Origin: Rhodospirillales bacterium
GTDB taxonomy: Bacteria > Pseudomonadota > Alphaproteobacteria > BOG-932 > Roseiterribacteraceae
Direction: 5' to 3'
Length of the DNA stretch: 43,377 nt
Assembly: GCA_028291365.1 (NCBI GenBank)
Contig: JAQGIE010000072.1
Location: 1 to 43,377 of the forward strand
A program made the translations under genes and the position numbers. A model generated the notes under the pieces. That model had not been told where the DNA came from. It did not search any database and worked only from the letters and a program-made list of their open reading frames with translations. Shown piece after piece: positions 3,232 to 40,621 of the stretch (position 1 is its first letter; each line of letters begins with the position of its first letter).

Positions 3232-4380
3232 TCAGATCACCCCAGCGACCGCCAGCGTGTGGAAACCCTGATAACCGACATACAGGCCGACCAGCACGAT
3301 CAGCGCGCCCGAAAAGTACGGCGCGCGCCGCGCCAAGGTGCCGAAGCCGGACCAGCGTTGCGACACGTGGCGCACGCTGAGCGCCGCGATCACGCCGGCC
3401 GTGACCATCGTCAGCGCCAGCCCGATGCTGAAGCACAGCACGAGCGCCACGCCGAGCGTGAACTGCTTCAGCTGCAGGCACAGCAACAGAACCGTGATCG
3501 CGGCCGGACACGGGATCAGCCCGCCGGTCAGGCCGAACACCACGATCTGCGCGGTCGTGACGTTGCGGTCGGCAAAACGGCGGCGGATGTCGTTCGCGTG
3601 CGCGCGCTCGTGCGCGTCCTGGAAGTCGGCTCCCGACACGTCGAGGCCAGCATGGTCGTGGCCGGCATGCGCATGTTCGACGAAGCGCGCCTCGAATGTG
3701 TGGCCGTGGCCGTCATGCTCGATCTCGACGCGAGCGGTGAATTCGTGCGGCTCCGGAATCGCCGAGGTCGATTCGAGGTACATGCCGCGATCCTCGAAGT
3801 CGAAGACCTGCCGCTCGCCGTGGGCGCGCACCGTCTCGACGCGAAAACGCCCGCCCTGGAGCGGCGCGGCGGGCTTTCCATGCTGCTCGAAACACAGCCA
3901 GAAGCGCGGCGGCATGCCGTCTTCCTGGATCGAAAGCTCGATGACGCCGTGAGCGGTGTCGATGCGGTGCGCCTCGGCAGCGTGATGATGATGGTGGTCA
4001 TGATCGTGCGCGTGTCCGTGCGACGCGCCGCGCCGCTGCTCGCGCCAGGTGCGCCAGATCATCCAAGACGCGATGGCCAGGATCAGCGCCGCCGAGATCA
4101 CCTGGAAATACGGTTCGGAGGTCTCGATGTCGAAGCTGCTGCCGAGCCGCATCCCGATCAGCGCGACGCCCCACACGACGAGCGTATGCGACGCGGTCGC
4201 GGCGAGGCCCAGCAGGATCGCCTGCCGCACCGAGCCGCGGATCGCGATGATGAAGGCCGCCATCATCGTCTTCGAATGGCCTGGCTCGAGACCGTGCAGC
4301 GCACCCAGCAAAATGGCGCTGGGCACGAACAGCCAGGCGTGCGCCGTGCCCTGCTGCAGCAGTTCGGAAAGCGGAGTCAT
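3232..4380 (-). CDS. rcnA: Nickel/cobalt efflux permease, RcnA family
   Basis: A 382-residue membrane protein that should export Ni(II)/Co(II) across the inner membrane. The family signature GALHGLEPGHSKTMMAAF is near residues 26-43. A very His-rich cytoplasmic loop follows TM3 (HGHAHDHDHHHHH, near residue 127), and a second His/Asp-rich stretch (HAHAGHDHAGLD) lies further on. The C-terminal half has the helices GGLIPCPAAITVLLLCLQL and GVALVLCFSIGLALTMV. The start at 4380 gives the usual short N-terminus and is preceded by the stop of the sensor gene 10 bases upstream, so both are one transcript. The insert between the His loop and TM4 is long compared with E. coli RcnA (about 130 residues, some resembling a beta domain), which is common in alphaproteobacterial members. 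Metal preference is inferred from the family. Confidence 0.88.
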   Translation of the reverse strand: MTPLSELLQQGTAHAWLFVPSAILLGALHGLEPGHSKTMMAAFIIAIRGSVRQAILLGLAATASHTLVVWGVALIGMRLGSSFDIETSEPYFQVISAALILAIASWMIWRTWREQRRGASHGHAHDHDHHHHHAAEAHRIDTAHGVIELSIQEDGMPPRFWLCFEQHGKPAAPLQGGRFRVETVRAHGERQVFDFEDRGMYLESTSAIPEPHEFTARVEIEHDGHGHTFEARFVEHAHAGHDHAGLDVSGADFQDAHERAHANDIRRRFADRNVTTAQIVVFGLTGGLIPCPAAITVLLLCLQLKQFTLGVALVLCFSIGLALTMVTAGVIAALSVRHVSQRWSGFGTLARRAPYFSGALIVLVGLYVGYQGFHTLAVAGVI

Positions 4381-4390
4381 CAGCGCGGCC

Positions 4391-4663
4391 TCAGAGGAAT
4401 TTTGTGATCGTCTTGAACTCTTCGAGCGCGGCCGCCTGCGGCTTGGCTTCGATCGCATGTTCGAGACAATGGTCGATATGGTCCTGGATGAAGGTCTTCT
4501 TCGCCTGGGCGATCGCCTTTTCGACAGCATGGAGCTGCTGGGCGACGTCGACGCAGGGCCGGCCGTCTTCGATCATCGACGCGATGCTGCGGAGATGCCC
4601 TTCGGCGCGGCGCAGCCGCTTCACGATGGCCGGGTGCGTCTCGTGGACGTGATCCTCGCTCAT
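4391..4663 (-). CDS. CsoR/RcnR/InrS-family metal-sensing repressor
   Basis: A 90-residue all-helical DUF156 repressor. The candidate metal ligands are C37 (GRPCVDV), H62 and C66 (DHIDHCLEH), i.e. the Cys-His-Cys set of CsoR and the nickel sensor InrS, not the Cys-His-His set of E. coli RcnR. The N-terminus is His-rich (H5, H7, H10, H23), which could supply a further nickel ligand as in InrS. It is co-transcribed with the exporter 10 bases downstream, so it most likely represses the exporter until nickel or cobalt binds. A Cu(I) or formaldehyde sensor is less likely given the partner gene. A near-perfect 19-base inverted repeat lies 11 bases upstream of the start, between plausible -35 and -10 boxes. 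Confidence 0.88.
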   Translation of the reverse strand: MSEDHVHETHPAIVKRLRRAEGHLRSIASMIEDGRPCVDVAQQLHAVEKAIAQAKKTFIQDHIDHCLEHAIEAKPQAAALEEFKTITKFL

Positions 4664-4673
4664 GCCGCCTGCA

Positions 4674-4692
4674 TATCCTCCCCGGGAGGATA
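4674..4692 (-). promoter_or_regulatory. Candidate operator in the csoR-like/rcnA promoter
   Basis: TATCCTCCCCGGGAGGATA is an inverted repeat of two 9-base arms around one central base: AT-rich ends and a G/C core, the general shape of CsoR/RcnR-class operators. On the minus strand it directly follows TTGACT (4697-4692, sharing one base) and runs into TATGCA about 16 bases later, so it fills the space between -35 and -10. The whole divergent spacer to chrB is only 94 bases, so binding here could also affect the chromate operon. Confidence 0.6.
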
Positions 4693-4757
4693 GTCAAGCC
4701 GAGCGAACCAGGCGCTTGCATCGCACGCCGCCGAAGCGCATCGTTGATGCAACTGCT

Positions 4758-5774
4758 ATGAACGACCTATCACAACTGAATCATCAAACGGCCGACGCGA
4801 GTGCGCCTTGGCTGCTGCTGATCCACCAGGTGCCGCCAAAGCCCGACTATCTGCGCGTGAAGGTCGGCCGTGCGCTCCAGGCGGCGGGCGCGATCGCCAT
4901 CAAGAACTCGGTCTACGCGCTGCCCAACCGGTCCGATGCGCGGCGTGCGTTCCAGCTGCTGCGGCACGAGATCGTTGTCGCGGGCGGCGACGCGACCATC
5001 GCCGCGGCGAGCTGGCTCGACGGGCTCGACGACCGCGCGCTGCGCGACATGTTCCGCGCCAGCGCCGATGCCGGCTATGCCGAATTGCGCAAGCGCGTCG
5101 ACGAGCTCGCGCGCGACCTGCCGCAACCGGACCAGCCCCAACCCGCCGCAACGAAACGCATCGCGACCGCGCTGGCGCGCGCGCGCGTCCAGGCGGCGGC
5201 GCTGGCGGCCACCGACTTCTTCAATTCGCCGGGCGGGGCCGCGCTCGAAGCGGCGATCGCGCATGCCGAGGCGAGCATCCGCGCGCCCGCCGGCACGGCC
5301 CGTCTCGCGCCCGCACCCCGGCGCGGCACGGTGTGGGTGACGCGCGCCGACGTGCATGTCGATCGCATCGCGAGCGCCTGGCTGATCCGCCGCTTCGCCG
5401 ATCAGGAGGCGCGCTTCAAATTCGTGCCGCCGCGCGGATATCGCCCGCAGCCGGGCGAGATCCGCTTCGACATGTTCGAAGCCGAGTACGGCCATGAAGG
5501 CGACCGCTGCACCTTCGAGGTGCTGGCGCGGCGCTTCGCGCCCGAGGACCCGGCGGTCGGCGCGATTGCCGAGATGGTGCACGACCTGGACATCGAGGAC
5601 GCCCGCTACCGGCGCGCCGAAACGCCGGGCGTCGCCGCGCTGCTCGCAGGCATCGTCGCCGGCACCGGCGACGACGACGAGCGCATCGCGCGCGGCCACG
5701 GCCTGTTCGACGGGCTGCACGCCGCGCTCGGCACCGCGACCGCCACGCAACCGAAGCAACGGAGGACGAAATGA
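4758..5774 (+). CDS. chrB: Chromate resistance protein ChrB (two-domain)
   Basis: A 338-residue cytoplasmic protein. Residues 1-150 match the ChrB N-terminal domain (WLLLIHQVPPKPDYLRVKVG, then IKNSVYALP) and residues about 190-325 the ChrB C-terminal 'chromate resistance' domain (WVTRADVHVDRIASAWLIRR, FDMFEAEYGHEGDRCTFEVL, VHDLDIEDARY). In Ochrobactrum and Cupriavidus, ChrB acts as a chromate-responsive regulator of the chr operon. The start at 4758 (MNDLSQLNHQ) gives the usual N-terminus; longer in-frame extensions would run into the divergent operator. It is the first gene of a tight operon, overlapping the next by 4 bases (ATGA). Confidence 0.9.
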   Translation: MNDLSQLNHQTADASAPWLLLIHQVPPKPDYLRVKVGRALQAAGAIAIKNSVYALPNRSDARRAFQLLRHEIVVAGGDATIAAASWLDGLDDRALRDMFRASADAGYAELRKRVDELARDLPQPDQPQPAATKRIATALARARVQAAALAATDFFNSPGGAALEAAIAHAEASIRAPAGTARLAPAPRRGTVWVTRADVHVDRIASAWLIRRFADQEARFKFVPPRGYRPQPGEIRFDMFEAEYGHEGDRCTFEVLARRFAPEDPAVGAIAEMVHDLDIEDARYRRAETPGVAALLAGIVAGTGDDDERIARGHGLFDGLHAALGTATATQPKQRRTK

Positions 5775-6583
5775 GCGCACCGATCAGCAGCGAAACCGTT
5801 CGAGCGTTGCAATACGGCCCCTCCGCGCCGCTGCTGCTCGACGTGCGTCGCGCCGAAGCCTACGCCTCGGCGGGCACCACCATCGCCGGCGCACTGCGGC
5901 GCGACCCGGCCGCGCTCGATTCCTGGCAGCACGAGCTGCCGCGCGGACGCATGATCGTCGTCGCCTGCGCGCACGGACATGAAATGAGCCAGCAGACCGC
6001 CGCCGCGTTGCGCGCCGAAGGCTTTGACGCGCGCTACCTGACCGGCGGCATCCAGGGCTGGCAGGACCAGGGCGAGCCGATGCTGCGCCAGCGGCCGGAT
6101 CTCGGCGTGCCGGGCGACGTGCCGTCGCGCTGGGTGACGCGCGCGCGACCGAAGATCGATCGCATCGCGTGCCCGTGGCTGCTCCGCCGCTTCATCGACC
6201 CGCTGGCGGAAATCATCTTCGTGCCGGCGGACGAAGTGCGCCTCTATGCGCACGAGACCGGTGCGATCCCGTTCGACGTGCCCGACGTTGCCTTCAGCCA
6301 TGTCGGCGAGCAATGCAGCTTCGACGCGTTCCTCGCCGCGTTCGAATTGGATGCGGCCGGTCTCGTGCAGCTTGGCCGGATCGTGCGCGGCGCCGACACG
6401 GCGCGGCCCGAACTCGCGCCCCAGGCGGCAGGTCTGCTGGCAATCTCGCTCGGCTATTCCGTGCTGCTCGAAGACGACCAGCGATGGCTCGCGAAGGGCA
6501 TTGAACTCTATGACGCGCTCTGGGCCTGGATCAGCCGAGCGCAGGACGAGGTACATACATGGCGTCCGGTTCAGGCAGCGTGA
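5771..6583 (+). CDS. Rhodanese domain fused to a ChrB C-terminal domain
   Basis: A 270-residue two-domain protein. Residues 8-110 form a rhodanese fold (LLLDVRRAEAYASAG; active loop ACAHGHEMSQ with C66 as sulfur-accepting cysteine; LTGGIQGWQDQG). Residues 120-260 repeat the ChrB C-terminal domain (WVTRARPKIDRIACPWLLRR, FDVPDVAFSHVGEQCSFDAF), so the operon carries this domain twice. It starts on the ATGA that ends chrB and overlaps chrA by 25 bases, so the three are probably translationally coupled. Possible roles are redox or sulfur chemistry linked to chromate stress, or an auxiliary sensor. No function beyond the operon association can be claimed. Confidence 0.85.
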   Translation: MSAPISSETVRALQYGPSAPLLLDVRRAEAYASAGTTIAGALRRDPAALDSWQHELPRGRMIVVACAHGHEMSQQTAAALRAEGFDARYLTGGIQGWQDQGEPMLRQRPDLGVPGDVPSRWVTRARPKIDRIACPWLLRRFIDPLAEIIFVPADEVRLYAHETGAIPFDVPDVAFSHVGEQCSFDAFLAAFELDAAGLVQLGRIVRGADTARPELAPQAAGLLAISLGYSVLLEDDQRWLAKGIELYDALWAWISRAQDEVHTWRPVQAA

Positions 6584-7932
6584 CGGCAACCGCGCTCGGT
6601 CTTTCCGCCGCGCCCGCCGCGCCGCCGTCCTTCGGCGAGGCGGCGCGGACATGGGCCAGGATCGGCCTGACAAATTTCGGCGGGCCGGCCGGCCAGATCG
6701 CGCAGATGCATCGCGTGCTGGTCGACGAGAAGCGCTGGATCGACGAGACGTCGTTCCTGCACGCGCTGAATCTTTGCATGCTGCTGCCCGGTCCCGAGGC
6801 GCAGCAGCTTGCGACCTATGTCGGCTGGCGGCTGCATGGCGTGCGCGGCGGACTCGTCGCCGGCTGGTTGTTCGTGGTGCCCGGCTTCCTGGTGATCCTG
6901 GCGCTCAGCGCCGCCTATCTCGCGTTCGCCGGCACGCGCACGCTGGAGACGTTGTTCGTCGGGCTGAAAGCGGCGGTGCTCGCGATCCTGCTGGAGGCCG
7001 TGCTGCGCATCGGCCGGCGGGTGCTCAAAAACGGAACGATGCTCGCCATCGCGGCCGCTTCGTTCGTCGCGATCTTTGCTTTCAAGGCGCCATTCCCGTT
7101 GATCGTCTTCGCCGCCGCCTTGCTCGGACTGGTCGGCGGCAGGTTGGCGCCGAAACGCTTCGCCGTGCTCGGCGCAAACGACAATGGAAGCACCGACGAA
7201 GAAATCCCGTCGCGATCGGCGCGTGTCGCTTCGACCGCGCGCATGGTCGGCATCTGGATGTTGCTCTGGTTCGCGCCGCTCGGCGTGCTGGCGCTGCTGT
7301 TGGGCCCCGATCACCTGTTCGTCACGCTCGGCCTGTACTTCGCCAAGATGGCGGTGGTGACGTTCGGCGGCGCCTATGCGGTGCTTGCCTACGTGGCGCA
7401 GGCTGCGGTCGAGACCTATCACTGGCTGGTGCCCGGCGAGATGCTCGACGGGCTGGCGCTGGCCGAGACCACGCCCGGCCCGCTGATCATCGTGCTGTGC
7501 TTCGTCGGCTTCCTGGCCGGCGCGCGCAACAGCGGCTTCGATCCGATGCTGGGCGGTGCGATCGGCGCGCTCGTCACCGTCTGGATGACCTTCGCACCGT
7601 GCTTCCTGTTCATCTTCGCCGCGGCGCCCTGGGTCGAGTCGCTGCGCCGTCAGCGCGTGCTCGCCGCGGCGCTCTCCGCGATCACCGCGGCGGTGGTCGG
7701 CGTGATCCTGAATCTCGGCATGTGGTTCGCGCTGCACGCGCTGTTCGGCCAGGTCGACATGCTGCGCCTCGGGCCGGCGACGCTGCCGGTTCCGTTCCTG
7801 GCGAGCTTCAGCCCCACGACGGCGCTGCTCGCCCTTGCTGCCGGCGTGGCGCTGCTGCGCTTTCACATCGGCATGATTCCCACGCTCGCAGGCTGCGCCC
7901 TCGCCGGCGTGGCGCTGCGCGCCGCGTTCTGA
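6559..7932 (+). CDS. chrA: Chromate efflux transporter ChrA (long-chain, two CHR domains)
   Basis: A 457-residue inner-membrane protein that exports chromate. Two inverted CHR domains are visible. The N-terminal one begins ARIGLTNFGGPAGQIAQMHR (about residue 34), with LNLCMLLPGPEAQQLATYVG. The C-terminal one has YFAKMAVVTFGGAYAVLAYV (about residue 259) and LAETTPGPLIIVLCFVGFLA. The FGGP and PGPEAQQ motifs are conserved ChrA features. The length matches the long-chain family. The start at 6559 overlaps the previous gene by 25 bases; MASGSGSVTATALG is a plausible soluble leader. The C-terminal half ends with two further hydrophobic helices. Confidence 0.95.
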   Translation: MASGSGSVTATALGLSAAPAAPPSFGEAARTWARIGLTNFGGPAGQIAQMHRVLVDEKRWIDETSFLHALNLCMLLPGPEAQQLATYVGWRLHGVRGGLVAGWLFVVPGFLVILALSAAYLAFAGTRTLETLFVGLKAAVLAILLEAVLRIGRRVLKNGTMLAIAAASFVAIFAFKAPFPLIVFAAALLGLVGGRLAPKRFAVLGANDNGSTDEEIPSRSARVASTARMVGIWMLLWFAPLGVLALLLGPDHLFVTLGLYFAKMAVVTFGGAYAVLAYVAQAAVETYHWLVPGEMLDGLALAETTPGPLIIVLCFVGFLAGARNSGFDPMLGGAIGALVTVWMTFAPCFLFIFAAAPWVESLRRQRVLAAALSAITAAVVGVILNLGMWFALHALFGQVDMLRLGPATLPVPFLASFSPTTALLALAAGVALLRFHIGMIPTLAGCALAGVALRAAF

Positions 7933-10283: not shown

Positions 10284-10400
10284 AAAATACCCGACCTATG
10301 TTTCCTTGACGCTGCCGTAGTTGCCAGAGTGTATGCACAGAGTTGACTTCTAGCCAATCACGTATACATGGCCCGGGGACGGACCCCTGCGGAGAAGCCA

Positions 10401-12047
10401 ATGAAAGCGTGGGCAACACAGAAGGCGACCCGGGCGGCCCGCATCGAGGCCGGATCGCGCTACGCACGCGGAAAAGCGGTCGCCGCCGCGGATCTGCCCC
10501 GCTTCCTCGACGCGGTGCTTCGGCCGGGCGACCGGGTCTGTCTCGAAGGCGATAATCAGAAGCAGGCCGATCTTCTCGCCACGGCGCTTGCCGATGTCGA
10601 TCCGGCGAAGATCCACGACCTGCACATGGTGCAGTCGGGCGTGGTGCTGCCCGCGCATCTCGACATTTTCGAAAAGGGAATCGCGCGCCGGCTCGACTAT
10701 TCCTATTCCGGTCCGCAAGCGGCGCGGATCGCGCGCATGTTGTTCAGCGGCCAGATCGAGCTCGGCGCGGTTCACACCTATCTCGAACTCTTTGCCCGCT
10801 ACTTCGTCGACCTCACCCCCAACGTCGCGCTGATCGCGGCGGTGAGCGCCGACGTGGCGGGCAATCTCTATACCGGGCCCAACACCGAGGACACGCCGAC
10901 CATTGTCGAGGCGACGAGTTTCAAAGGCGGTCTCGTCATCGCGCAGGTGAAGGAGATCGTCGACCAGGTGCCGCGCGTCGACATCCCCGGCGACCAGGTT
11001 CATTTCGTCGTCGAGGCGGGCAAGCCCTTCTACGTCGAACCGCTTTTCACCCGCGACCCCGCTGCCATCACCGAGACCCAGATCCTGACCGCGATGCTCG
11101 CGATCAAGGGCCTCTACGCGCCGTACGGCGTGCGCCGGCTCAATCACGGCATCGGCTTCAACACCGCCGCAATCGAACTCCTGTTGCCCACCTACGGCGA
11201 GACGCTGGGTCTCAAGGGCAAGGTTTGCACCCATTGGGCGCTCAATCCGCATCCGACGCTGATCCCCGCGATCGAGGCCGGCTGGGTCGAGCAGATCCAC
11301 TGCTTCGGCTCGGAGGTGGGGATGGAGGATTACATCGCCGCCCGCTCGGACATTTTCTTCACCGGACTCGACGGGTCGCTGCGCTCGAACCGCGCCTTCT
11401 GTCAGACCGCCGGACTCTATGCGTGCGACATGTTCATCGGCTCGACGCTGCAGATCGATCTCGCGGGCCACAGCTCGACGGTAACGGCGAGCCGCATGGC
11501 CGGCTTTGGCGGCGCGCCCAACATGGGATCCGACCCGCGCGGGCGACGACATTCGAGCGAACCCTGGCTGAAAGCCGGCGCCGAGGCGGACCCCGATACG
11601 CACCCTCACCTGCGACGCGGCCGCAAGCTCGTCGTCCAGATCGGCGAGACGTTCGGCGACCAGAACGTGCCGTTGTTCGTCGAGCGGCTGGAGGCGCTGA
11701 CGCTGGCCGAGAAACTCGACCTCGATCTCGCGCCCGTCATGATCTACGGCGACGACGTCACCCACATCGTCACCGAGGAAGGGATCGCCAACCTTCTTCT
11801 TTGCCGCGACCGCGACGAGCGCGAGCAGGCGATCCGGGGCATCGCCGGCTACACCGACATCGGTCGCGGCCGCGACCGCAAGATGGTGGAGCGGCTGCGC
11901 GAGCGCGGCGTCATCCGCCGCCCGGAGGATCTCGGCATCGATCCGTTGGATGCGGACCGAAGGCTGCTCGCGGCGCGTTCGATCAAGGATCTGATGCTCG
12001 CCTCGGGCGGGCTCTACCGGCCGCCGAGCCGGTTCCGGAATTGGTGA
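10401..12047 (+). CDS. mdcA: Malonate decarboxylase alpha subunit (acetyl-S-ACP:malonate ACP transferase)
   Basis: A 548-residue CoA-transferase-like subunit that moves the acyl carrier protein from acetate to malonate, releasing acetate. The family runs through the whole length: DRVCLEGDNQKQADLLA, HDLHMVQSGVVLPAHLDIF, ARYFVDLTPNVALIAAVSAD, ATSFKGGLVIAQV, YGVRRLNHGIGFNTAAIELL, THWALNPHPTLIPAIEAGWV, CFGSEVGMEDYIAARSDIFF, MAGFGGAPNMGSDPRGRRH. The ATG at 10401 is preferred over 10368 because GGAG lies 6-10 bases before it and MKAWATQKATRAARI resembles the family start. It is the first gene of mdcACDEGB; the next gene starts 14 bases later. Confidence 0.95.
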   Translation: MKAWATQKATRAARIEAGSRYARGKAVAAADLPRFLDAVLRPGDRVCLEGDNQKQADLLATALADVDPAKIHDLHMVQSGVVLPAHLDIFEKGIARRLDYSYSGPQAARIARMLFSGQIELGAVHTYLELFARYFVDLTPNVALIAAVSADVAGNLYTGPNTEDTPTIVEATSFKGGLVIAQVKEIVDQVPRVDIPGDQVHFVVEAGKPFYVEPLFTRDPAAITETQILTAMLAIKGLYAPYGVRRLNHGIGFNTAAIELLLPTYGETLGLKGKVCTHWALNPHPTLIPAIEAGWVEQIHCFGSEVGMEDYIAARSDIFFTGLDGSLRSNRAFCQTAGLYACDMFIGSTLQIDLAGHSSTVTASRMAGFGGAPNMGSDPRGRRHSSEPWLKAGAEADPDTHPHLRRGRKLVVQIGETFGDQNVPLFVERLEALTLAEKLDLDLAPVMIYGDDVTHIVTEEGIANLLLCRDRDEREQAIRGIAGYTDIGRGRDRKMVERLRERGVIRRPEDLGIDPLDADRRLLAARSIKDLMLASGGLYRPPSRFRNW

Positions 12048-15490: not shown

Positions 15491-16434
15491 CGCGCGCGTA
15501 GCACGATCTTGCCAAGCACATGCCCGGCGGCGAGGCGTTCATGCGCCTTGGCAGCCTCGGCAAGCAGATACGAAGCGGCGATCACAATTTCGAGCTTCGA
15601 CGCCTGGATGGCTTGATCGAGGCGCTCGAACTCGGCGACTCCGGCAACCGCGTCGTAGGGTGTGATGGTGATGCCGTGCCGGGGCTTCGGCTCGGGCTCG
15701 ACCCCGTTGGGATAGGCGAGCCGGCCGCCCTCGCGCACCGCATCGAGGCAGCGCTCGAGCGCATCGCCGCCCGCGAACGCCAGCACCGCATCGACACCGG
15801 TGCGGGCGAAGCGGCGTGCCACTGCCGCGATGTCGTCGCGCCGCCCGTCAACGGCAACGTCGGCGCCGAGCCGGCGGACCAGCGCCACACCGTCCTCGCC
15901 GGTCGCGGTGGCGAGCACGCGGGCTTCTCGCAGCTTGGCGAACTGCACGGCGACGGTACCGACGCCGCCGGCGGCGCCGTGGATGATCACAGACTCGCCT
16001 CGCCTCAGAAGCAGGTGGTCGTCGATCCCTTGCAGCGCCGTGAGGCCGCTGACCGGCACCGCGCCGGCATGCGCCAGGTCGAGCGGTTCGGGCACGCGCG
16101 CGACGGTGGATGACGGGACCGCGACATACTCGGCGTAGAAGCCGCCCTTTGGATTGTCCCACGCGAAGGCATAGACCTCGTCGCCGAGCTTGAACCGGCC
16201 GACGTTGGCGCCGAGCGCGGCGATGTTGCCGGAGCCGTCGGAGCCGAGCACGAGCGGGAACTGCACCTCCCGGTCACCAGGCTGCCAACCCTCGCGCATA
16301 TCGGCATCCCACACCCCGACACCGGCAGTATGCACCGCGATCAAAACCTCGTCGGCGTCGGGGATCGGTACGGGCACGGTGTGCAGCGTCAGCACCTCCG
16401 GTCCGCCGAAGCGATCGAGCGCCGCCGCGCGCAT
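15487..16434 (-). CDS. NADPH:quinone oxidoreductase-like MDR family protein
   Basis: A 315-residue zinc-free medium-chain reductase. The start MRAAALDRFGGPEVLTLHTV is the classical quinone-oxidoreductase N-terminus, which fixes the start at 16434. The catalytic-domain helix is AVPVSGLTALQGIDDHLLL, and the Rossmann motif is IIHGAAGGVGTVAVQFAKL (about residue 145). It likely reduces quinones, enones or other electrophiles with NADPH. It is convergent with mdcB (stops overlap by 4 bases) and divergent from the aldo/keto reductase across 418 bases that hold two FNR/FixK-like boxes. Confidence 0.88.
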   Translation of the reverse strand: MRAAALDRFGGPEVLTLHTVPVPIPDADEVLIAVHTAGVGVWDADMREGWQPGDREVQFPLVLGSDGSGNIAALGANVGRFKLGDEVYAFAWDNPKGGFYAEYVAVPSSTVARVPEPLDLAHAGAVPVSGLTALQGIDDHLLLRRGESVIIHGAAGGVGTVAVQFAKLREARVLATATGEDGVALVRRLGADVAVDGRRDDIAAVARRFARTGVDAVLAFAGGDALERCLDAVREGGRLAYPNGVEPEPKPRHGITITPYDAVAGVAEFERLDQAIQASKLEIVIAASYLLAEAAKAHERLAAGHVLGKIVLRAR

Positions 16435-16528
16435 CGTCCTATGGCTTGTCGGCACCCTGCTCCCTCCGGCGCAATCAGCCGCCTCGTGACGAGTGACCGA
16501 GACGCTACGACGCGAGGCGCAGGACGCC

Positions 16529-16542
16529 TTGATGGCGGTCAA
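16529..16542. promoter_or_regulatory. FNR/FixK-like box 1 in the oxidoreductase/aldo-keto reductase spacer
   Basis: TTGATGGCGGTCAA fits TTGA-N6-TCAA, the core of FNR, Anr and FixK sites. It lies 95 bases upstream of the oxidoreductase ATG on the minus strand. The remaining spacer shows no gene. Confidence 0.45.
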
Positions 16543-16681
16543 GTTCTGCCCATCGACCTCGCCCGCTCGCCTTTCTCGGGCGCGCCTGTGCACGCTTGCA
16601 TCGTGGCGAGCACAGGCCGCAGCGAACCGTCGTCGCGATTCCGTGTCGCGGCGCTCCAGCGACGACATCGGCCGGTCCCTT

Positions 16682-16699
16682 CATTGATGGCCGTCAATG
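16682..16699. promoter_or_regulatory. FNR/FixK-like box 2, extended inverted repeat
   Basis: CATTGATGGCCGTCAATG is an 18-base inverted repeat with one mismatched pair, containing TTGA-N6-TCAA (16684-16697). It is almost the same word as the box at 16529. It lies about 154 bases upstream of the aldo/keto reductase ATG. Confidence 0.5.
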
Positions 16700-16852
16700 A
16701 CCGTTCGGCGGCCGGCGCGGATAAGGGATTCGTCTCGACCGCGCCCCCGACAAACCCGCACGCCGATGAAAATTCACCCCCGAGGTCGGGATGGCGCACG
16801 TCAACGATCCATCGATCGTCGATCTGCGCGGCAGTCGAAGCAGGAACATGTC

Positions 16853-17704
16853 ATGACCGTACGCACCGCCGTCAAAACAATCAGTTTTCCATCCGGTGAA
16901 GCCGTTCCCGTGCTCGGGCAGGGCACGTGGCACTTCGCGGAGGACCCGCTCCGTCGGGTCGATGAGATCGCCGCGCTGCGCCTCGGCATCGAGCTCGGCA
17001 TGCGTTTGATCGACACCGCCGAAATGTACGCCGATGGCGGCGCCGAAGCCCTCGTCGGAGAAGCGATCGCGGGACGCCGCGACCAGGTTTTCCTGGTCAG
17101 CAAGGTCCTCCCCCATCATGCGACGCTGCACGGAACGATCGGCGCCTGCGAGCGCAGCCTGGTGAGGCTTGGTGTTGAAGAAATCGACCTCTATTTGCTG
17201 CATTGGCGCGGCACCATTCCCCTCGAGGAAACGCTCGAAGCGTTTGAGAGGCTCATGCGCGCAGGCAGGATTCGCAACTGGGGCGTCAGCAACTTCGATG
17301 TCGACGATATGGAAGACCTCATCGCTCTTCGTGGCGGCGACCAGGTATGCACCGACCAGGTGCTCTACAATCTGCAACATCGCGGCATCGAATTCGACCT
17401 GCTGCCGTGGTGCAGACGAAGCAGCGTGGCGGTCATGGCCTACTCGCCGATCGAGCAGGGCCGGATTTTGATTCATCCGGTGATCAGGTCGGTGGCCGCG
17501 CGGCATCGGGTCACGCCGAGCCAGGTGGCGCTCGCCTGGGTGCTGCGGAGCGATGACGTCTGCGCGATCCCGCGCGCGAGCAATCCTGCACATGTTCGGG
17601 AGAATCTCGGGGCGCTCGACCTTCGCCTGTCGGCGGCTGATTTCACCGAATTGGACCACGCCTTTCCGCCACCCAAGCACAAGCAGCCGCTGGCCGTGGA
17701 GTGA
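16853..17704 (+). CDS. Aldo/keto reductase
   Basis: A 283-residue TIM-barrel NADPH-dependent reductase. The catalytic tetrad is complete: D54 and Y59 (LIDTAEMYADGG), K84 (VFLVSKVLP) and H117 (LYLLHWRG). Further family marks are RNWGVSNFDVDDMEDL, the DQVLYNLQHRGIEFDLLPWC strand, VMAYSPIEQG, and the cofactor loop AIPRASNPAHVRENLGA. ATG 16853 follows CAGGAAC. The 26-base gap to the next gene on the same strand suggests a two-gene operon with the thioredoxin-reductase-like fusion, pointing to a redox or aldehyde stress role. The substrate is not known. Confidence 0.9.
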   Translation: MTVRTAVKTISFPSGEAVPVLGQGTWHFAEDPLRRVDEIAALRLGIELGMRLIDTAEMYADGGAEALVGEAIAGRRDQVFLVSKVLPHHATLHGTIGACERSLVRLGVEEIDLYLLHWRGTIPLEETLEAFERLMRAGRIRNWGVSNFDVDDMEDLIALRGGDQVCTDQVLYNLQHRGIEFDLLPWCRRSSVAVMAYSPIEQGRILIHPVIRSVAARHRVTPSQVALAWVLRSDDVCAIPRASNPAHVRENLGALDLRLSAADFTELDHAFPPPKHKQPLAVE

Positions 17705-17730
17705 CGCTGCTGAACGCGTGAGGATGCGCC

Positions 17731-19434
17731 ATGGCGACGATCGATTCGCGCGATGCGGCGATGTTTCCAAAACTCACGGCTGCAGAAATCGATCGGCTCC
17801 GCCGCTTTGGCCAGGACAAGCGTTACGGCAAGGATCAGCCGCTTTTCGTGACCGGCGAGGTCGCGCCAGGCATGTTCGTGCTCGCAAGCGGCCGCGTGAA
17901 GGTGGTGCGCAGCGATCCGTTCGGGCATCTCGCTCCGGTCCTCGAGCAAGGCCCTGGTGATTTCGTCGCCGAAGTGGGGCAGCTCTCGGGCCGGCCGGCG
18001 TTGGTCAACGTTCACGCGATCGAAGACGTACAGGCGCTTCTCATTTCGCCTGACAATCTGCGAAGCGTGATGATCGCGGAGCCCGAACTCGGCGACCGCA
18101 TTCTGCGCGCGTTGATCTTGCGCCGCATCGCGCTGATCGAAACCGGTGCCGGCGGCCCCGTCCTGATCGGACCTGAGGACGCGCCCGATGTCGTGCGCCT
18201 GCAGGGCTTTCTCACGCGCAATGCCTATCCGTATCAGGTGCTCGATCCCGCCAAGGATCGTGATGCCGCCGATCTGGTCGAGAAATATGCCCTCAATCCG
18301 ACCGACCTGCCGCTTGCGGTATGTCCCAAGGGCACGATTCTCAAGAACCCGAGCGAAGCGGATCTCGCGCGTGCACTCGGGATGGTTCGGATCGATCAAC
18401 CGGACCGCACCTACGATGTCGCCATCGTGGGCGCCGGGCCGGCGGGACTCGCGACCGCAGTCTATGCGGCGTCGGAGGGACTTTCGGTTGTGGTGTTCGA
18501 CGCACGAGCGTTCGGCGGACAAGCCGGCGCCAGTGCCCGCATCGAGAATTATCTGGGATTTCCGACCGGCATATCGGGCCAGACGCTCACCGGGCGGGCC
18601 TATGTTCAGGCACAAAAATTCGGCGCCGAGATGGTGATTCCGACCGAGGTCTCGGGCATGGACTGCAGTCAAAATCCCCGTACGCTGGAACTTGCTGACG
18701 GAGTCCGCGTCAAAGCTGCGGCGGTGGTGATTGCGTCAGGCGCGCGCTACCGGCGGCTCGACCTACCCAACCTGCGTGAATTCGAGGGGCGCGGCGTCTG
18801 GTACTGGGCCTCTCCGATCGAGGCGCGGCTGTGTCGGCACGAAGAGATCGTCCTGGTCGGCGGCGGCAACTCGGCCGGCCAGGCCGCCGTGTTCTTGCGC
18901 GACTACGCCGCGAAGATCTGGCTTCTGGTACGTGGGTCGAGCCTTGCCGAAAGCATGTCGCAATATCTGATCGATCGGATCGCGGCCGCACCGAACATCG
19001 AAGTCCTGACGAATACGGAAGTCGTGGCGCTCTCAGGCTCGCCGCACGGCCAGCTCGAGCGTATCCGATGGCGCCACCGACCATCGGGAGAGGAAACCGA
19101 AAAACCTCTCCGTCATCTTTTCCTTTTTATCGGCGCCGACCCGGCGACGGATTGGCTGCAAGGCTGCGTTTCGCTCGACGCCAAAGGCTTCGTTCAAACC
19201 GGTGCAAGCGTACCGGCGCAGGATTTCCGCTCGCACGACGCCGCCGCCCCGCCGCTGTTTCTGCAATCCAGCGTCGCCGGCGTTTTCGCCGTGGGCGATG
19301 TACGCGCCGGCTCGGTCAAGCGCGTGGGCGCCGCAATCGGCGAAGGCGCGGTGGTGGTGGCGCAACTGCACGCCTATCTGGCTGCGACACGTACCGACTC
19401 TGCCGAGGCCCGGCCGCAGGCCCGCGCCTTGTGA
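17731..19434 (+). CDS. Cyclic-nucleotide-binding domain fused to a thioredoxin-like and a CxxC-less thioredoxin reductase-like flavoprotein
   Basis: A 567-residue three-part protein. Residues 10-135 are a Crp-type cNMP-binding jelly roll (FVTGEVAPGMFVLASGRVKV, APVLEQGPGDFVAEVGQLSG, ALLISPDNLRSVM) with no helix-turn-helix after it. Residues 145-220 look like a thioredoxin-fold linker (PVLIGPEDAPDVVRLQGFLT, PLAVCPKGTILKNPSEADLA). Residues 230-550 are a thioredoxin-reductase-like FAD/NAD(P)H module: YDVAIVGAGPAGLATAVYAA, FDARAFGGQAGASARIENYL, IVLVGGGNSAGQAAVFLRDY, VFAVGDVRAGSVKRVGAAIG. Where TrxR has its redox CxxC, this protein reads WYWASPIEARLC, so no thiol pair exists. Similar fusions are known from genome surveys but their electron acceptor is unclear. 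It follows the aldo/keto reductase by 26 bases. Confidence 0.88.
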   Translation: MATIDSRDAAMFPKLTAAEIDRLRRFGQDKRYGKDQPLFVTGEVAPGMFVLASGRVKVVRSDPFGHLAPVLEQGPGDFVAEVGQLSGRPALVNVHAIEDVQALLISPDNLRSVMIAEPELGDRILRALILRRIALIETGAGGPVLIGPEDAPDVVRLQGFLTRNAYPYQVLDPAKDRDAADLVEKYALNPTDLPLAVCPKGTILKNPSEADLARALGMVRIDQPDRTYDVAIVGAGPAGLATAVYAASEGLSVVVFDARAFGGQAGASARIENYLGFPTGISGQTLTGRAYVQAQKFGAEMVIPTEVSGMDCSQNPRTLELADGVRVKAAAVVIASGARYRRLDLPNLREFEGRGVWYWASPIEARLCRHEEIVLVGGGNSAGQAAVFLRDYAAKIWLLVRGSSLAESMSQYLIDRIAAAPNIEVLTNTEVVALSGSPHGQLERIRWRHRPSGEETEKPLRHLFLFIGADPATDWLQGCVSLDAKGFVQTGASVPAQDFRSHDAAAPPLFLQSSVAGVFAVGDVRAGSVKRVGAAIGEGAVVVAQLHAYLAATRTDSAEARPQARAL

Positions 19435-19449
19435 GTCCGACAAACGGTG

Positions 19450-20028
19450 TCACCCTCCGTCGAGGAGGGGCACCATCCCGGCATTGCCTTGTTGCCGTAC
19501 CAGATCGACGGCGGTGTTGCCTGCTGCATCCTTCAGGGCGACGTTGGCGCCATGGGCCATCAGCAGCTTGACCACGTCCGTCCGGCCGAACAGCGCGGCC
19601 ATCATGAGCGCGGTCTGTCCTGCATCGTTGGCGGCGTTGACGTCGCAATGTTCGGCGAGCAACCGATCCGCGACGTTGCTGTCCCCCTTGAAGGCGACAC
19701 CCATCAGCGCGTTGTTGCCCTTTGGATCGAGGGCGCAGGGATCGGCGCCGTGCGCGATCAGGAAATCGACCGCCTGCGCCTGACCGTTGTACGCGGCCAG
19801 GATCAGCGGCGTGAACCCGCGCGGATCGTGCTCATTGGGATTCATCCCGGATTTGATCAGGCCTTCGAGGAGATCAACCCGGCCGGTTCGCGCAGCGTCG
19901 AAATACAGCGCTTTGACACGCTCGGGAGAGAGGGGCTCGCTTTGGGCGCGTGCGCCCTGCAAGCCGACAAGGCTCGCGCCAATGACAAACGCGACGCCAA
20001 CCGCGCTCCGCTTTGCTTGAGGTGACAT
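19450..20028 (-). CDS. Exported ankyrin-repeat protein, catalase partner (AnkB-like)
   Basis: A 192-residue protein with a signal peptide (MSPQAKRSAVGVAFVIGASL, VGLQGARAQ). Four or five ankyrin repeats follow from about residue 40: FDAARTGRVDLLEGLIKSGM, GFTPLILAAYNGQAQAVDFL, GNNALMGVAFKGDSNVADRL, GQTALMMAALFGRTDVVKLL, GNTAVDLVRQQGN. The catalase stop and this ATG share one base (TGATG), so translation is coupled; a GTG one codon earlier is a less likely start. In Pseudomonas aeruginosa a periplasmic ankyrin protein (AnkB) is needed for full KatB activity, and the same pairing is found widely. A role as a periplasmic scaffold or protector of the catalase is inferred from that. Confidence 0.87.
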   Translation of the reverse strand: MSPQAKRSAVGVAFVIGASLVGLQGARAQSEPLSPERVKALYFDAARTGRVDLLEGLIKSGMNPNEHDPRGFTPLILAAYNGQAQAVDFLIAHGADPCALDPKGNNALMGVAFKGDSNVADRLLAEHCDVNAANDAGQTALMMAALFGRTDVVKLLMAHGANVALKDAAGNTAVDLVRQQGNAGMVPLLDGG

Positions 20029-21581
20029 CACGGCATCCCTCCGGCTTGGCCTGACGTCATCTTGTTGTCGATCGATTTGACGTCGACGCCAACGGCCGCG
20101 CCCAGCCGCGTGCCGTAGTCTTTGTCGGCCTGATAGAAGTGGCTGACCATCGCTTCCTTGATCTGCATGCTCTTCACCTGGCCGAGATCATTGGCCAGGT
20201 TCTTGATCAGGTCGTCCCGCTCATGCTGGCTGAGCGCGCGATAGAATTCGCCCGCTTGACGGAAATTGTCCTGCTTATCGATCGCCTTCTGCTGCGTCAT
20301 GCCGGTTACGGCATATTGGCTGTAGCTGAACTTCGACTCCTGGGCGGGATTGCCTGCGACCGTGGTCGGCTCGTAATTCACGTCGCCCTGACGCGGAGCG
20401 GACTGCATGGTGCCGTCGATATTGTTGTTGCTGACCTGCACCAGCGGGCGGTTCACGGGCAGCTGCATATAGTTCGCCCCGATACGGTAGCGTTGCGTGT
20501 CGGCATAGGCGAACAAACGCCCCTGCAGCATGCGATCGGGCGAGGCCTCGATGCCCGGCACCATCACGCAGGGGCAGAACGCCGACTCTTCGGAATAGTC
20601 GAAGTAATTTTGCGGCACATTGTTCAAGGTCATGGTGCCGACCTTCACTTCCGGAACGCCAGTCCAGACCTTCGTATCGTCAAAGCCATCGTAGCTCAGC
20701 GCCGCCACCTCCTTTGCGGTCAGCATCTGGACGGTGAGGTCCCACTTGGGGAAATTGCCGGTGCTGATGTTCTGATACAGGTCCTTGGTCGCATAGTTGG
20801 TGTCGGCAGCCTCGGTCTCCTCGAGGGTCATGCCCTTGATGCCCTGCTGACTCTTCCAGTGGAACTTGGCAAAGATCTCTTCGCCTTTGCTATTGACCAG
20901 GCGGAACGTATTGACGCCGAAGCCATCCATCGTGCGGTAGCTCGCCGGCATGCCGATGCTATCGGTGTAGAGCTGCGTCAGCATGTGCGTTGATTCAGGA
21001 ACCTGTGAAAAGAAGTCGAACGCGCGGTTCGGGTCCTGGACATCGGTGACCGGTGACGGCTTGTTCGCATGGACGAAGTCGGGGAACTTGATGGCATCGC
21101 GGATGAAGAAGATCGGCTCATTGATGCCGACCAGATCCCAGTTGCCCTGATCCGTATAGAATTTGACGGCAAAGCCGCGCGGATCGCGGGCCGCCTCGGG
21201 CGAGCCGCGGAAATTCATCACCGTCGAGAAACGCACGAAGACGGGCGTCTCCTTGCCCGGCGCGCCGAAAAGCGACGCCTTCGAATGTTGCGAGAAATCC
21301 GTGCTCGCGACAAAGACGCCTTGAGCGCCGGTGCCGCGTGCGTGAACGACGCGTTCTGGAATCCGCTCACGATCGAAACGGGCGAGCTTCTCGATCAGGT
21401 TGAAGTCTTCGAGGAGCACGGGACCTTCTGGACCGGCCACTTTCGAGTTCTGGTTGTCACCCACCGGAACGCCCGTGTCTCGCGTCATCGGCATTTGCGG
21501 CGGCGTTTGCCCCGCCGGATCGGCGGCCAACACAGGCGTCGCCAGCAGACTGGCCACGCTCACAGCAAGAATCATACGCAT
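20028..21581 (-). CDS. katB: Exported monofunctional haem catalase (KatB-like)
   Basis: A 517-residue catalase with a Sec signal peptide (MRMILAVSVASLLATPVLAA), so it should work in the periplasm on H2O2. The active site is complete: distal H80 (RVVHARGTGAQGVF), N154 (GNWDLVGINEPIFF) and proximal haem ligand Y359 (GRLFAYADTQRYR). Other marks are VRFSTVMNFRGSPEAARDPR and YSEESAFCPCVMVPGIEASP. The length fits small-subunit clade 3 enzymes. The ATG at 21581 is preferred over the longer 21629 start because GAAGGAGAG lies just upstream and it opens the signal peptide. The loop VGINEP differs from the common GNNTP. It is transcribed before the ankyrin gene and divergent from an AraC regulator. Confidence 0.94.
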   Translation of the reverse strand: MRMILAVSVASLLATPVLAADPAGQTPPQMPMTRDTGVPVGDNQNSKVAGPEGPVLLEDFNLIEKLARFDRERIPERVVHARGTGAQGVFVASTDFSQHSKASLFGAPGKETPVFVRFSTVMNFRGSPEAARDPRGFAVKFYTDQGNWDLVGINEPIFFIRDAIKFPDFVHANKPSPVTDVQDPNRAFDFFSQVPESTHMLTQLYTDSIGMPASYRTMDGFGVNTFRLVNSKGEEIFAKFHWKSQQGIKGMTLEETEAADTNYATKDLYQNISTGNFPKWDLTVQMLTAKEVAALSYDGFDDTKVWTGVPEVKVGTMTLNNVPQNYFDYSEESAFCPCVMVPGIEASPDRMLQGRLFAYADTQRYRIGANYMQLPVNRPLVQVSNNNIDGTMQSAPRQGDVNYEPTTVAGNPAQESKFSYSQYAVTGMTQQKAIDKQDNFRQAGEFYRALSQHERDDLIKNLANDLGQVKSMQIKEAMVSHFYQADKDYGTRLGAAVGVDVKSIDNKMTSGQAGGMP

Positions 21582-21850
21582 CAGGCTCTCCTTCTCGAAC
21601 GCACCGGCTTCGTGCGGAACAGGTGTCATCTAGGAGAGCAAGCGGCGCTTTCTTTGCCGCGCTTACGGAGATTTCGGCGCGATTAGCACAATGCTGGCAA
21701 GAAGCCGCAGTTGAAGCGCTGAGCGGTCGTCCCAGCTGATCGTTCGCTTGATGTGATTTCATTCCATGTCGTGCGATTTCGATAGCGGAGGTCACAAGAT
21801 GCTCGACCGGCATTCGCATTCCGGGCGCGCGACAGGTTGGCGCAAATTCG

Positions 21851-30697: not shown

Positions 30698-31153
30698 ATG
30701 GCTGCCATTCTCCAGATCGTCTGTCCCCATTGCGACCAGATCAACCGCATGGCGCGCGAGCGGTTGCGCGACAGCGGCAAGTGCGGCGCCTGTCACCAGC
30801 CGCTCTTCACGGGCAAGCCGGTGGCGCTCGACGACGCCAAGCGGTTCGAGCGACACGCGAAGTACAGCGACCTGCCGCTGCTGGTCGATGTGTGGGCGCC
30901 TTGGTGCGGCCCGTGCCTGGCGATGGCGCCCACGTTCGAAGCAGCGGCTGCCGAACTCGAACCCGAATTCAGGCTGGTCAAGGTCAATGGCGACGAGGCG
31001 GCCGAACTATCGGCGCGCTTCGCGATCCGGCACATCCCGACCTTGCTGCTGATCCTGCACGACCGCGAACTGGCGCGCAGCTCGGGGGCGATGAGCCAAC
31101 AACAGCTGCTGCGCTGGGCACACGAGCACGCACCGCGCCTCGAAGCGGCGTGA
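30698..31153 (+). CDS. trxC: Thioredoxin 2 (zinc-finger thioredoxin)
   Basis: A 151-residue cytoplasmic disulfide reductase. The N-terminal zinc finger has C9, C12, C29 and C32 (IVCPHCDQ, KCGACHQ), the mark of TrxC. The thioredoxin fold follows, with the active site WCGPC (C70, C73) in LLVDVWAPWCGPCLAMAP and the cis-proline loop RHIPTLLL. The length is normal. A weak FNR-like word lies just upstream, and a bidirectional terminator lies about 100 bases downstream. It has no close operon partner; oxidative stress control is usual for the family. Confidence 0.95.
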   Translation: MAAILQIVCPHCDQINRMARERLRDSGKCGACHQPLFTGKPVALDDAKRFERHAKYSDLPLLVDVWAPWCGPCLAMAPTFEAAAAELEPEFRLVKVNGDEAAELSARFAIRHIPTLLLILHDRELARSSGAMSQQQLLRWAHEHAPRLEAA

Positions 31154-39499: not shown

Positions 39500-40621
39500 A
39501 TGAGAGCCGACGTCGTTGTCATCGGAGCGGGCGTGGTCGGAGCGGCCATCGCTTATGGGCTCGCAACTCGCAACGTGCGTGTGCTCGCAATCGATGGCGG
39601 CGACAGAGACTTCCGCGCAGCGAACGCCAATTTTGGATTGGTGTGGCAGCAAGGCAAAGGCCTGGACATGCCGGCCTATCAGCAATTGACGCGTGGCTCG
39701 GTGGAGTTGTGGCCCAATTTCAGCGCGGAACTCGCGGACGCGAGTGCGATCGATGTTCACTACGATCGTAGCGGCGGGCTGTCGATCTGTCTGAGCGAAG
39801 CCGAATTCGAAACGCAACGCACGACGTTGCTGCGCCTGCACAACCAACTCGGCGGCGCCGAGGCCGATTGGGAAATGCTCGATCGAAGTGCTCTCGTCAG
39901 GCTCCTTCCGACGGTCGAATTCGGACCGGACGTGGTCGGCGCAAGCTACGGACCCGACGACGGCCAGACCAATCCGCTACGCCTGCTTTCCGCGCTTCAC
40001 GCGGGACTCCTGCGCAGAGGTGGAGCGTTGCGCGGCGGTAGCACCGTGCACGCAGTGCATTCGGATGGAAGCGGCGGCTTCACGATCGAGTTCGGGTCCG
40101 AGCGCGTATCGGCGGCGCGTGTCGTGATCGCCGCCGGCTTGGGATCGAAAGCACTTGCCGCGCAGGTTGGTCTCGATATCCCGATTCGGCCGCAACGAGG
40201 CCAGATCCTGGTCACGGAACGGCTTGCGCCGTTTCTACCAATCCCGATGCAGGGCCTGCGTCAGACGCGCGAGGGTACCGTCATGATCGGTTCGACGCGC
40301 GACGACCCCGGCTTCGACAACTCGACCACTGTCGAAGCGGGCGCTTGGTTGAGCGCGCGCGCGCTTCGACGCGTGCCGGCGCTGCGCGATACAATGCTGG
40401 TCCGCCAATGGGCGGGGCTGCGCGTGCTGACGCCCGACGAATATCCGATCTATGCGGAGTCGCAGAGCCATCCCGGCGCCTTCGTTGCCGTGTGCCATTC
40501 AGGCGTGACGCTCGCTGCAGCGCATGCCGCGCTGCTCGCCGAAGCCATCGCAGCAGGTCGGCTGCCGCCTTCCCTCGATGCTTTTCACCAAAGGCGCTTT
40601 GATGTTCCGCAAGCTGCATGA
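39500..40621 (+). CDS. FAD-dependent amino/imino acid dehydrogenase, catalytic subunit (DAO family; HcnC/OoxB-like)
   Basis: A 373-residue flavoprotein of the D-amino-acid/sarcosine oxidase fold. FAD-binding MRADVVVIGAGVVGAAIAYG starts the protein; later marks are SYGPDDGQTNPLRLLSALHA, VVIAAGLGSKALAAQVGLDI, PIRPQRGQILVTERLA, and the C-terminal GAFVAVCHSGVTLAAAHAAL. It should oxidise a secondary or alpha-amine to an imine. With the two next genes it has the three-part architecture of HcnABC (glycine to HCN), octopine/nopaline oxidase and D-hydroxyproline dehydrogenase. The next gene starts inside its 3' end (20-base overlap). The substrate is unknown; uptake genes beside it argue for catabolism rather than cyanogenesis. 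Confidence 0.88.
   Translation: MRADVVVIGAGVVGAAIAYGLATRNVRVLAIDGGDRDFRAANANFGLVWQQGKGLDMPAYQQLTRGSVELWPNFSAELADASAIDVHYDRSGGLSICLSEAEFETQRTTLLRLHNQLGGAEADWEMLDRSALVRLLPTVEFGPDVVGASYGPDDGQTNPLRLLSALHAGLLRRGGALRGGSTVHAVHSDGSGGFTIEFGSERVSAARVVIAAGLGSKALAAQVGLDIPIRPQRGQILVTERLAPFLPIPMQGLRQTREGTVMIGSTRDDPGFDNSTTVEAGAWLSARALRRVPALRDTMLVRQWAGLRVLTPDEYPIYAESQSHPGAFVAVCHSGVTLAAAHAALLAEAIAAGRLPPSLDAFHQRRFDVPQAA

Follow-up and report, generated by a model that had tools for sequence, protein, structure and literature searches.

A widespread family of Crp-like-domain flavoproteins with a thioredoxin reductase fold, no CxxC motif and a genomic link to zf-UBP proteins

Introduction

The low-molecular-weight thioredoxin reductases (TrxR; TrxB, TIGR01292) combine Rossmann domains for flavin adenine dinucleotide (FAD) and NAD(P) in a fold that is shared by several other enzymes. 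AhpF carries a TrxR-like module behind an N-terminal thioredoxin-fold part, and the TrxR-like ferredoxin/flavodoxin-NAD(P)+ reductases (FNRs) and the bacillithiol disulfide reductase (Bdr/YpdA) have the fold without a CxxC motif (PMC10294844). The Bact_Pyrredox proteins combine a cyclic nucleotide-binding (CNB) domain with a pyridine-nucleotide oxidoreductase (PMC2246266, Table 1), and a census of response regulators includes a receiver-TrxB protein (PMC9953108, Table 5); what is taken here from these papers and from PMC8564101 refers to excerpts of them. The subject of this work is a flavoprotein gene in a stretch of 43,377 nucleotides (the window) of contig JAQGIE010000072.1 of a Rhodospirillales bacterium (assembly GCA_028291365.1), whose product joins a Crp-like CNB domain, a glutaredoxin (Grx)-like linker and a TrxR-like module without CxxC.

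Proteins of the same architecture and family are present in RefSeq as 'cyclic nucleotide-binding domain-containing thioredoxin-disulfide reductase' or 'FAD-dependent oxidoreductase', and we see no essential difference between them and the window protein. The family is large and widespread, and its architecture and members are already known from databases, under general or misleading names. Among the titles and abstract starts listed in searches of open-licence papers, none names the family, or a bacterial zf-UBP protein together with such an enzyme, and these searches gave no description of the loss of both dithiols, of the absent arginine of the nucleotide-binding cassette or of the links with zf-UBP and chaperone genes. 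A reading made from the letters of the window alone (the sequence-only reading) had recognised the protein itself and overlooked the wide family, its links with zf-UBP and the heat-shock genes to which some members are linked.

We propose, at roughly even odds (a probability of about 0.5), that the window protein is a stress-linked, sensor-gated NAD(P)H flavoenzyme, which would pass the electrons of FAD straight to an outside partner or a small acceptor. The database label 'thioredoxin-disulfide reductase' implies a reaction against which the absence of CxxC speaks, and the mechanism of thioredoxin reductase is closed to a large family filed under that label or simply as 'FAD-dependent oxidoreductase'. 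Through the tie of this family to zf-UBP, the two can be tested together as a single system, and the runs of chaperone genes hint where.

Overall architecture and family

The gene begins with ATG and forms a single open frame over exactly the positions that the sequence-only reading had assigned to it (Table 1). Relative to L008, which is 77% identical, the ratio of nonsynonymous to synonymous substitution rates (dN/dS) is 0.145 by NG86 and 0.09 by YN00, and relative to L009 it is 0.117 by NG86; the gene is intact and under purifying selection. With Pfam at E-values up to 1, cNMP_binding is matched at E 2.8e-13 and Pyr_redox_2 at E 5.9e-31, and none of the 18 matches listed is a DNA-binding family. 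The frame, the Pfam matches and the alignments bear out the architecture that had been claimed, including a cNMP-binding domain without a DNA-binding part, with one refinement at the CxxC site.

Table 1. Positions of the flavoprotein gene, its parts and related features (window coordinates unless a locus is named)
Feature	Position	Strand	Basis
Flavoprotein coding sequence, 567 residues, sensor + Grx-like + TrxR-like	17731..19434	+	Open frame; dN/dS against L008; Pfam
Crp-like cNMP_binding domain, residues 30-114, without helix-turn-helix	17818..18072	+	Pfam; phmmer
Phosphate-binding-cassette region, residues 80-96; Glu81 present, Ala90 at the Arg position	17968..18018	+	Alignment; canonical motif from an excerpt of PMC2246266
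Glutaredoxin-like linker domain, residues ~143-217, without CxxC	18157..18381	+	2lqo profile match; AlphaFold2 model
TrxR-fold FAD/NAD(P) module, residues 228-539	18412..19347	+	Pfam; AlphaFold2 model
WYWASP, residues 357-362, where the CxxC stretch is expected	18799..18816	+	L003 alignment; 149 rows
Cys368, sole cysteine conserved almost throughout the family	18832..18834	+	145/149
NAD(P) motif GGGNSAGQ of the family, residues 377-384	18859..18882	+	N380, A382, G383, Q384 each 149/149
Arg401, last remnant of the HRRxxxR (2'-phosphate) motif	18931..18933	+	Arg 149/149; following residue Gly 120/149
Lys-Arg-Val, residues 530-532; Arg-Gln-Ala in the TrxR L003	19318..19326	+	146, 147 and 146 of 149
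Upstream aldo/keto reductase gene	16847..17704	+	Pfam, E 1.6e-53
Receiver-TrxR-like enzyme with adjoining cNMP_binding/HATPase_c kinase	L211 3297-7537; L222 3575-6711; L230 3031-7609		

A scan of a genome collection gave 130 encoding stretches, 80 of which were kept, and members of the family were also found in 128 plasmid records, from which 20 regions were picked by hand. Two genome samples are less biased than the locus set used for flanking genes: among 299 genomes of the window's phylum, 40 have a member at E <= 1e-60, and among 146 from the phylum of Anaeromyxobacter oryzae, 38 have one at E <= 1e-55; these counts may be low, the best four candidates per genome having been scored in the former flavoprotein scan and the best nine in the latter. 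Conservation is given for 149 aligned relatives, which are 170 loci less the window copy and identical C-termini; some rows contain internal stops, and three are repeats (L093 = L002, L122 = L200, L129 = L204), leaving 146 independent rows. The CNB-bearing relatives are the 138 of these whose match starts before residue 40. In one relative set, seven loci besides the window copy were dropped (six with stops, and L003, which is short).

In a FastTree phylogeny of TrxR modules, with 148 family members including the window protein plus L003 and L004 of the same genome, all 117 Trp-type sequences form one clade with a support of 0.816. The match reaches the CNB domain in all 117 of them and in 20 of the 31 others, and stops short of it in the remaining 11; the window genome has a paralogue, L002, of the HYAATP type. 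Pfam confirms a receiver domain in each of L211, L208, L222 and L230, and L200 shows neither receiver nor CNB domain. This receiver-fused branch matches, by description, the response regulators with TrxB output, one of which is listed in the excerpt of PMC9953108; different from the window protein, they have a receiver in place of the CNB domain.

Loss of both dithiols

TIGR01292 is the best NCBIfam match of the window protein, at 209 bits, below its cut-off of 343, whereas the separate CATC-bearing TrxR of the same genome, L003, reaches 392 bits. In the alignment with L003, W359 stands opposite the first cysteine of the motif and I363 opposite the second, P362 being gapped; a shifted gap places the second equally well on P362, the family being one residue longer here than L003. 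With this refinement, the WYWASP that the sequence-only reading had set in the place of CxxC holds. None of the 149 relatives and none of the 20 plasmid-borne regions has CxxC at the site, and no relative has any cysteine at 356-367, five having one at 355. Three of the CxxC-less plasmid regions nevertheless carry the RefSeq name 'cyclic nucleotide-binding domain-containing thioredoxin-disulfide reductase'. Position 359 is W in 116, A in 15, G in 13, S in 3 and T in 2 of the relatives, position 358 is Tyr in 144, and W359 and S361 are invariant among 44 sequences. Because CxxC is missing, the thioredoxin reductase mechanism is unavailable, and thioredoxin reduction in the normal way, which had been discounted on the same ground, would be ruled out.

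Could another pair of cysteines take over? The window protein has four cysteines, at 198, 312, 368 and 479, and no CxxC anywhere in the chain. The same four columns are those with cysteine in at least half of the relatives (105, 110, 145 and 114, respectively), and only C368 is near-universal; there is no universal second pair of the kind that the sequence-only reading had named as its possible refutation. A true thioredoxin reductase with a distant pair, such as C312/C479, in place of CxxC could account for the joint presence of these two residues in 107 of the 149 relatives, for trxA next to the flavoprotein gene in five actinomycete plasmid loci and for a TrxC-type gene near L086. Such an enzyme is nevertheless very improbable, given that neither cysteine is universal, that CxxC at another site of the module occurs in only two rows (L069 and L072, both frames with stops), and that the genome already has L003.

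Over residues 132-224, the linker between sensor and module gives no Pfam match with E-values up to 0.1. Mycoredoxin-1 (2lqo) is matched at E 2.8e-4 by a profile built from 34 relatives, and an AlphaFold2 (AF2) model of the linker alone, with a predicted local distance difference test score (pLDDT) of 87.7, has small glutaredoxin-like proteins as its closest structures: 3zit with Z 10.6 and a root-mean-square deviation (rmsd) of 2.3 over 78 residues, and 2lqo with Z 10.6 and 3.2 over 86. A cysteine pair in segment 143-158 is never seen among the 149 relatives, and a single cysteine in only two. The 'thioredoxin-like segment' of the sequence-only reading is therefore right as to the presence of the fold, which is more exactly glutaredoxin-like and has no cysteine pair.

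Judged from the sequences, both dithiols, that of TrxR and that of Grx, are lost in an AhpF-like layout. The AhpF structure 4o5q is the top Foldseek match, over 450 columns, although the whole chains fail to superpose (TM 0.39, rmsd 19.1). Unlike AhpF, which has tandem thioredoxin folds, the window protein has one Grx-like domain, both cysteine pairs are gone and a CNB domain is added. Relative to the low-molecular-weight TrxR, it is without CxxC, has lost HRRxxxR and has gained the CNB and Grx-like domains. The YpdA family, TIGR04018, gives only 43.8 bits against a cut-off of 339.9. To our knowledge, neither the TrxR-like FNRs nor Bdr/YpdA carry a sensor domain.

A fold without CxxC also recalls the FNRs (PMC10294844), and the genome's L004, which is FNR-like by our reading of its sequence, has FY opposite the WY of the window protein. 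An FNR that arose independently from the TrxR branch is, however, distinctly unlikely. With one reference each, L003 is nearer (133 bits) than L004 (62 bits); TIGR01292 scores 209 bits for the window protein against 129 bits; and matches in the PDB rank TrxRs above FNRs. Moreover, L004 would already serve this function, although NCBIfam placed it in no FNR family, and the features listed for the 20 plasmid regions, the only loci searched in this respect and ones with incomplete gene tables, include neither a ferredoxin nor a flavodoxin.

FAD and NAD(P) sites

The cofactor motifs are kept throughout the family. G262, G263, Q264, A265, N273, G276, P278, G377, N380, A382, G383 and Q384 are invariant in the 149 relatives; G522, D523 and R531 are found in 147, with two gaps each; and the family marks M409-S410-x-Y412-L413 are found in 147, 149, 148 and 149. 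At the position of HRRxxxR, the motif for the 2'-phosphate of NADPH in low-molecular-weight TrxR (PMC8564101), the window protein reads VRGSSLA, with only R401 left. Whether the donor would be NADH or NADPH cannot be told from the sequence.

Structure prediction, suggested as a check by the sequence-only reading, recovers the TrxR fold. The AF2 model (pLDDT 86.8, predicted TM-score 0.87) resembles TrxR in the flavin-reducing pose (5mh4, Z 32.3, rmsd 2.1 over 303; 1f6m, Z 31.0, rmsd 2.4), as opposed to the flavin-oxidising structures 7aaw and 5mjk (rmsd 6.4-7.0), the poses being assigned from the structure titles and an excerpt of PMC8564101; VIA-align matches to the full model are filled by TrxR-fold chains. 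The predicted pose would suit an enzyme without CxxC, for which the flavin-oxidising pose is useless, and is suggestive only.

Sensor domain

The sensor is matched by phmmer to Crp of Mycobacterium tuberculosis (3h3u, E 1.8e-8), with Ala opposite the Arg of the latter. Set without gaps against the cassette of PKA, GELALIYGTPRAATVVA (excerpt of PMC2246266), the window protein reads AEVGQLSGRPALVNVHA, in which Ala replaces Arg. Arg at position 90 is found in none of the 138 CNB-bearing relatives (Ala90 in the window protein), and Glu81 is conserved in 135 of them and replaced by Asp in the other 3. R88, two residues before position 90, is Arg in 106 of the 138 and could in principle stand in for the cassette arginine; given R88 and the two class III cyclases of the window's genome, a cyclic nucleotide may be bound by another route. 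Cassettes that depart from the canonical form, with different ligands, are described for further CNB families (PMC2246266). The Bact_Pyrredox proteins differ from the window protein in that, according to the excerpt of the same paper, their oxidoreductase is amino-terminal, their CNB domain is in tandem and the cassette arginine is present; the CNB domain of the window protein is N-terminal, single and without this arginine.

The receiver-fused branch bears on the same point. In all three receiver-type loci examined (L211, L222 and L230), a neighbouring kinase-like protein combines cNMP_binding with HATPase_c; at L211 it is encoded by the second gene downstream, on the opposite strand, with a HATPase_c protein without CNB domain in between. 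Four such kinase CNB domains were aligned, and all lack the arginine too. A non-canonical Crp-like input is thus either fused to the enzyme or placed in a kinase beside a receiver-bearing enzyme, which favours input through such a domain and makes the canonical cAMP mode less likely. Of the 'nucleotide-controlled' enzyme in the sequence-only reading, the input through a sensor domain is strengthened, and control by cyclic nucleotides is doubtful.

Association with zf-UBP proteins

A small gene recurs in 29 of 87 clustered gene sets, and its representative at L044 is a zf-UBP protein by Pfam and almost identical to 2ida, whose solved structure bears the title 'Hypothetical protein'. The zf-UBP domain reads ubiquitin C-termini in eukaryotes; no function of a bacterial zf-UBP was found in the open-licence literature. 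By comparison with HDAC6, most of its cysteines are presumably zinc ligands, which weighs against a dithiol relay by zf-UBP.

Among the 299 genomes of the window's phylum, zf-UBP (PF02148) is present in 14, and all 14 are among the 40 flavoprotein carriers (Fisher p 6e-14). Counted by genus, which removes common descent only partly, zf-UBP is found in eight genera, all inside the 21 of 181 that have the flavoprotein (p 8e-9). Of these 14 matches, twelve are no more than 500 bases from the flavoprotein gene, that of G288 is 5.3 kb from it, and that of G316 is distant. For the Anaeromyxobacter phylum, zf-UBP occurs in 36 of the 38 flavoprotein genomes (all except G366 and G452) versus 25 of the 108 others (p 2e-15), and 10 pairs lie within 430 bases. 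A separate set of 138 loci with 1.2 kb on both sides, which includes the window and excludes L093, L122, L129 and the fusion L195, has zf-UBP within that distance in 52; it is biased, being heavy in Bradyrhizobium and containing L200 and L204, which were chosen since zf-UBP is adjacent. In L195 (contig 433 of G441, 3240-5651, reverse strand), a single frame of 803 residues joins CNB, Pyr_redox_2 and zf-UBP.

It can be asked whether such a pair is an enzyme with its partner or a signalling device. A sensor or scaffold for redox state or NAD(P)H, with little turnover, whose flavin state is the output and is passed conformationally to a partner, for instance the zf-UBP protein, would agree with the modular input (CNB or receiver), with the co-occurrence of zf-UBP, with its fusion in L195 and with its fusion also to Na+/H+ exchanger-TrkA_N proteins. 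We regard this as unlikely, since the invariant FAD and NAD(P) motifs are those expected of an enzyme and the near relatives of the window copy are without zf-UBP.

As a separate observation from the Anaeromyxobacter phylum, the zf-UBP domain of the exchanger proteins is at or near the C-terminus (L196, 1328-3877, forward; L197, 3976-6390, reverse; L198, 2234-4351, forward). As a neighbour of the window copy, zf-UBP was rejected, none being nearby.

Chaperone and stress genes near relatives

In five of five actinomycete plasmid loci (Streptomyces angustmyceticus and four Rhodococcus plasmids), dnaJ, cbpM, clpB and trxA precede the flavoprotein gene. The run dnaJ-cbpM-clpB-trxA-zf-UBP-flavoprotein is found in L218, L223, L227, L228 and L229, and a DUF1931 gene comes next in the last three; zf-UBP is annotated in four of the five and recognised by motif in L229, and dnaK is listed in two and grpE in two. 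In the closest sub-branch, Microvirga L009-L013, a Clp-type ATPase gene lies 0.6-3.3 kb upstream in all five loci and an Hsp20 gene is present in three; tblastn with the Microvirga proteins found neither Clp nor Hsp20 in the other 75 of the 80 loci. Aldehyde dehydrogenase (L016, L088), zinc-type alcohol dehydrogenase (L008, L014) and DJ-1/PfpI (L014) genes are near other close relatives. These varied contexts point to stress handling.

Proposed mechanism

In the sensor-gated flavoenzyme that we favour, NAD(P)H would reduce FAD in the TrxR-fold module and, because the TrxR and Grx dithiols are both absent, the electrons would leave the flavin directly for an external partner or small acceptor, bypassing any internal disulfide. 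The Crp-like domain, with its non-canonical ligand pocket, and the Grx-like domain would gate or dock this transfer, and the setting would be protein, thiol or carbonyl stress. More tentatively, the family may form a modular switch for redox stress. A Crp-like sensor of the non-canonical kind, either part of the chain or acting through a kinase and a receiver, would drive the dithiol-less TrxR-fold flavoenzyme, and a dedicated partner, zf-UBP, would act as an adaptor or docking protein that couples the NAD(P)H status to protein quality control (Clp, the DnaK system, Hsp20, thioredoxin). The window protein would then be a branch that dropped the zinc finger or shares it.

A number of observations weigh against the favoured proposal. 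As many as 26 of the 40 flavoprotein carriers in the window's phylum are without zf-UBP, and therefore the dependence is one-sided. The sole zf-UBP gene of the window's genome is divergent from the paralogue L002 and not near the window gene; zf-UBP is absent from the genomes of the near relatives L008, L009, L010 and L013 and present in 3 of the 14 relatives' genomes searched. Within the 43-kb window no zf-UBP, Clp or Hsp20 neighbour was found, and the Clp/Hsp20 link of Microvirga belongs to one clade and is so perhaps one event. The use of NADPH is uncertain because HRRxxxR has shrunk to one Arg, and the flavin-reducing pose of the model may echo the training structures. A scan of 16400-19700 found no sigma-70-like promoter.

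Neighbouring genes

A gap of 26 nt separates the end of the aldo/keto reductase gene from the flavoprotein gene, and the two are likely co-transcribed. A 50%-identical relative of this reductase lies 4.7 kb upstream of the flavoprotein gene of L008, and at L213 a different aldo/keto reductase is directly upstream. As a general partner, the reductase was rejected: tblastn over the loci found only L008 (50%) and L166 and L065 (30-33%), which makes no rule.

Downstream, a catalase gene (20028-21629, reverse strand) is convergent to the flavoprotein gene, with an ankyrin gene between the two. A regulated NAD(P)H oxidase, producing hydrogen peroxide that the neighbouring catalase clears, would make sense of this gene and of a flavin without an internal acceptor. 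We hold it to be even less likely than an FNR, as the window catalase has no tblastn match in the 233 other loci, many with flanks of only 1.5 kb, and on the same result catalase was rejected as a partner. The ankyrin-repeat gene comes directly after the catalase gene, the pair (19450-21629, reverse strand) facing the flavoprotein gene.

At 11 kb from the flavoprotein gene, a thioredoxin 2 gene of the TrxC type (zinc ribbon and thioredoxin; 30698-31150, forward strand) encodes a candidate partner. Elsewhere in the window, all on the forward strand, are chromate transporter and ChrB-like regulator genes (4662-7932), a gene for the malonate decarboxylase alpha subunit (10368-12047), perhaps the first of a longer cluster, and a DAO-type oxidase gene adjoining that of a Pyr_redox_2 protein with BFD-like [2Fe-2S] and sarcosine-oxidase A3 domains (39500-42280).

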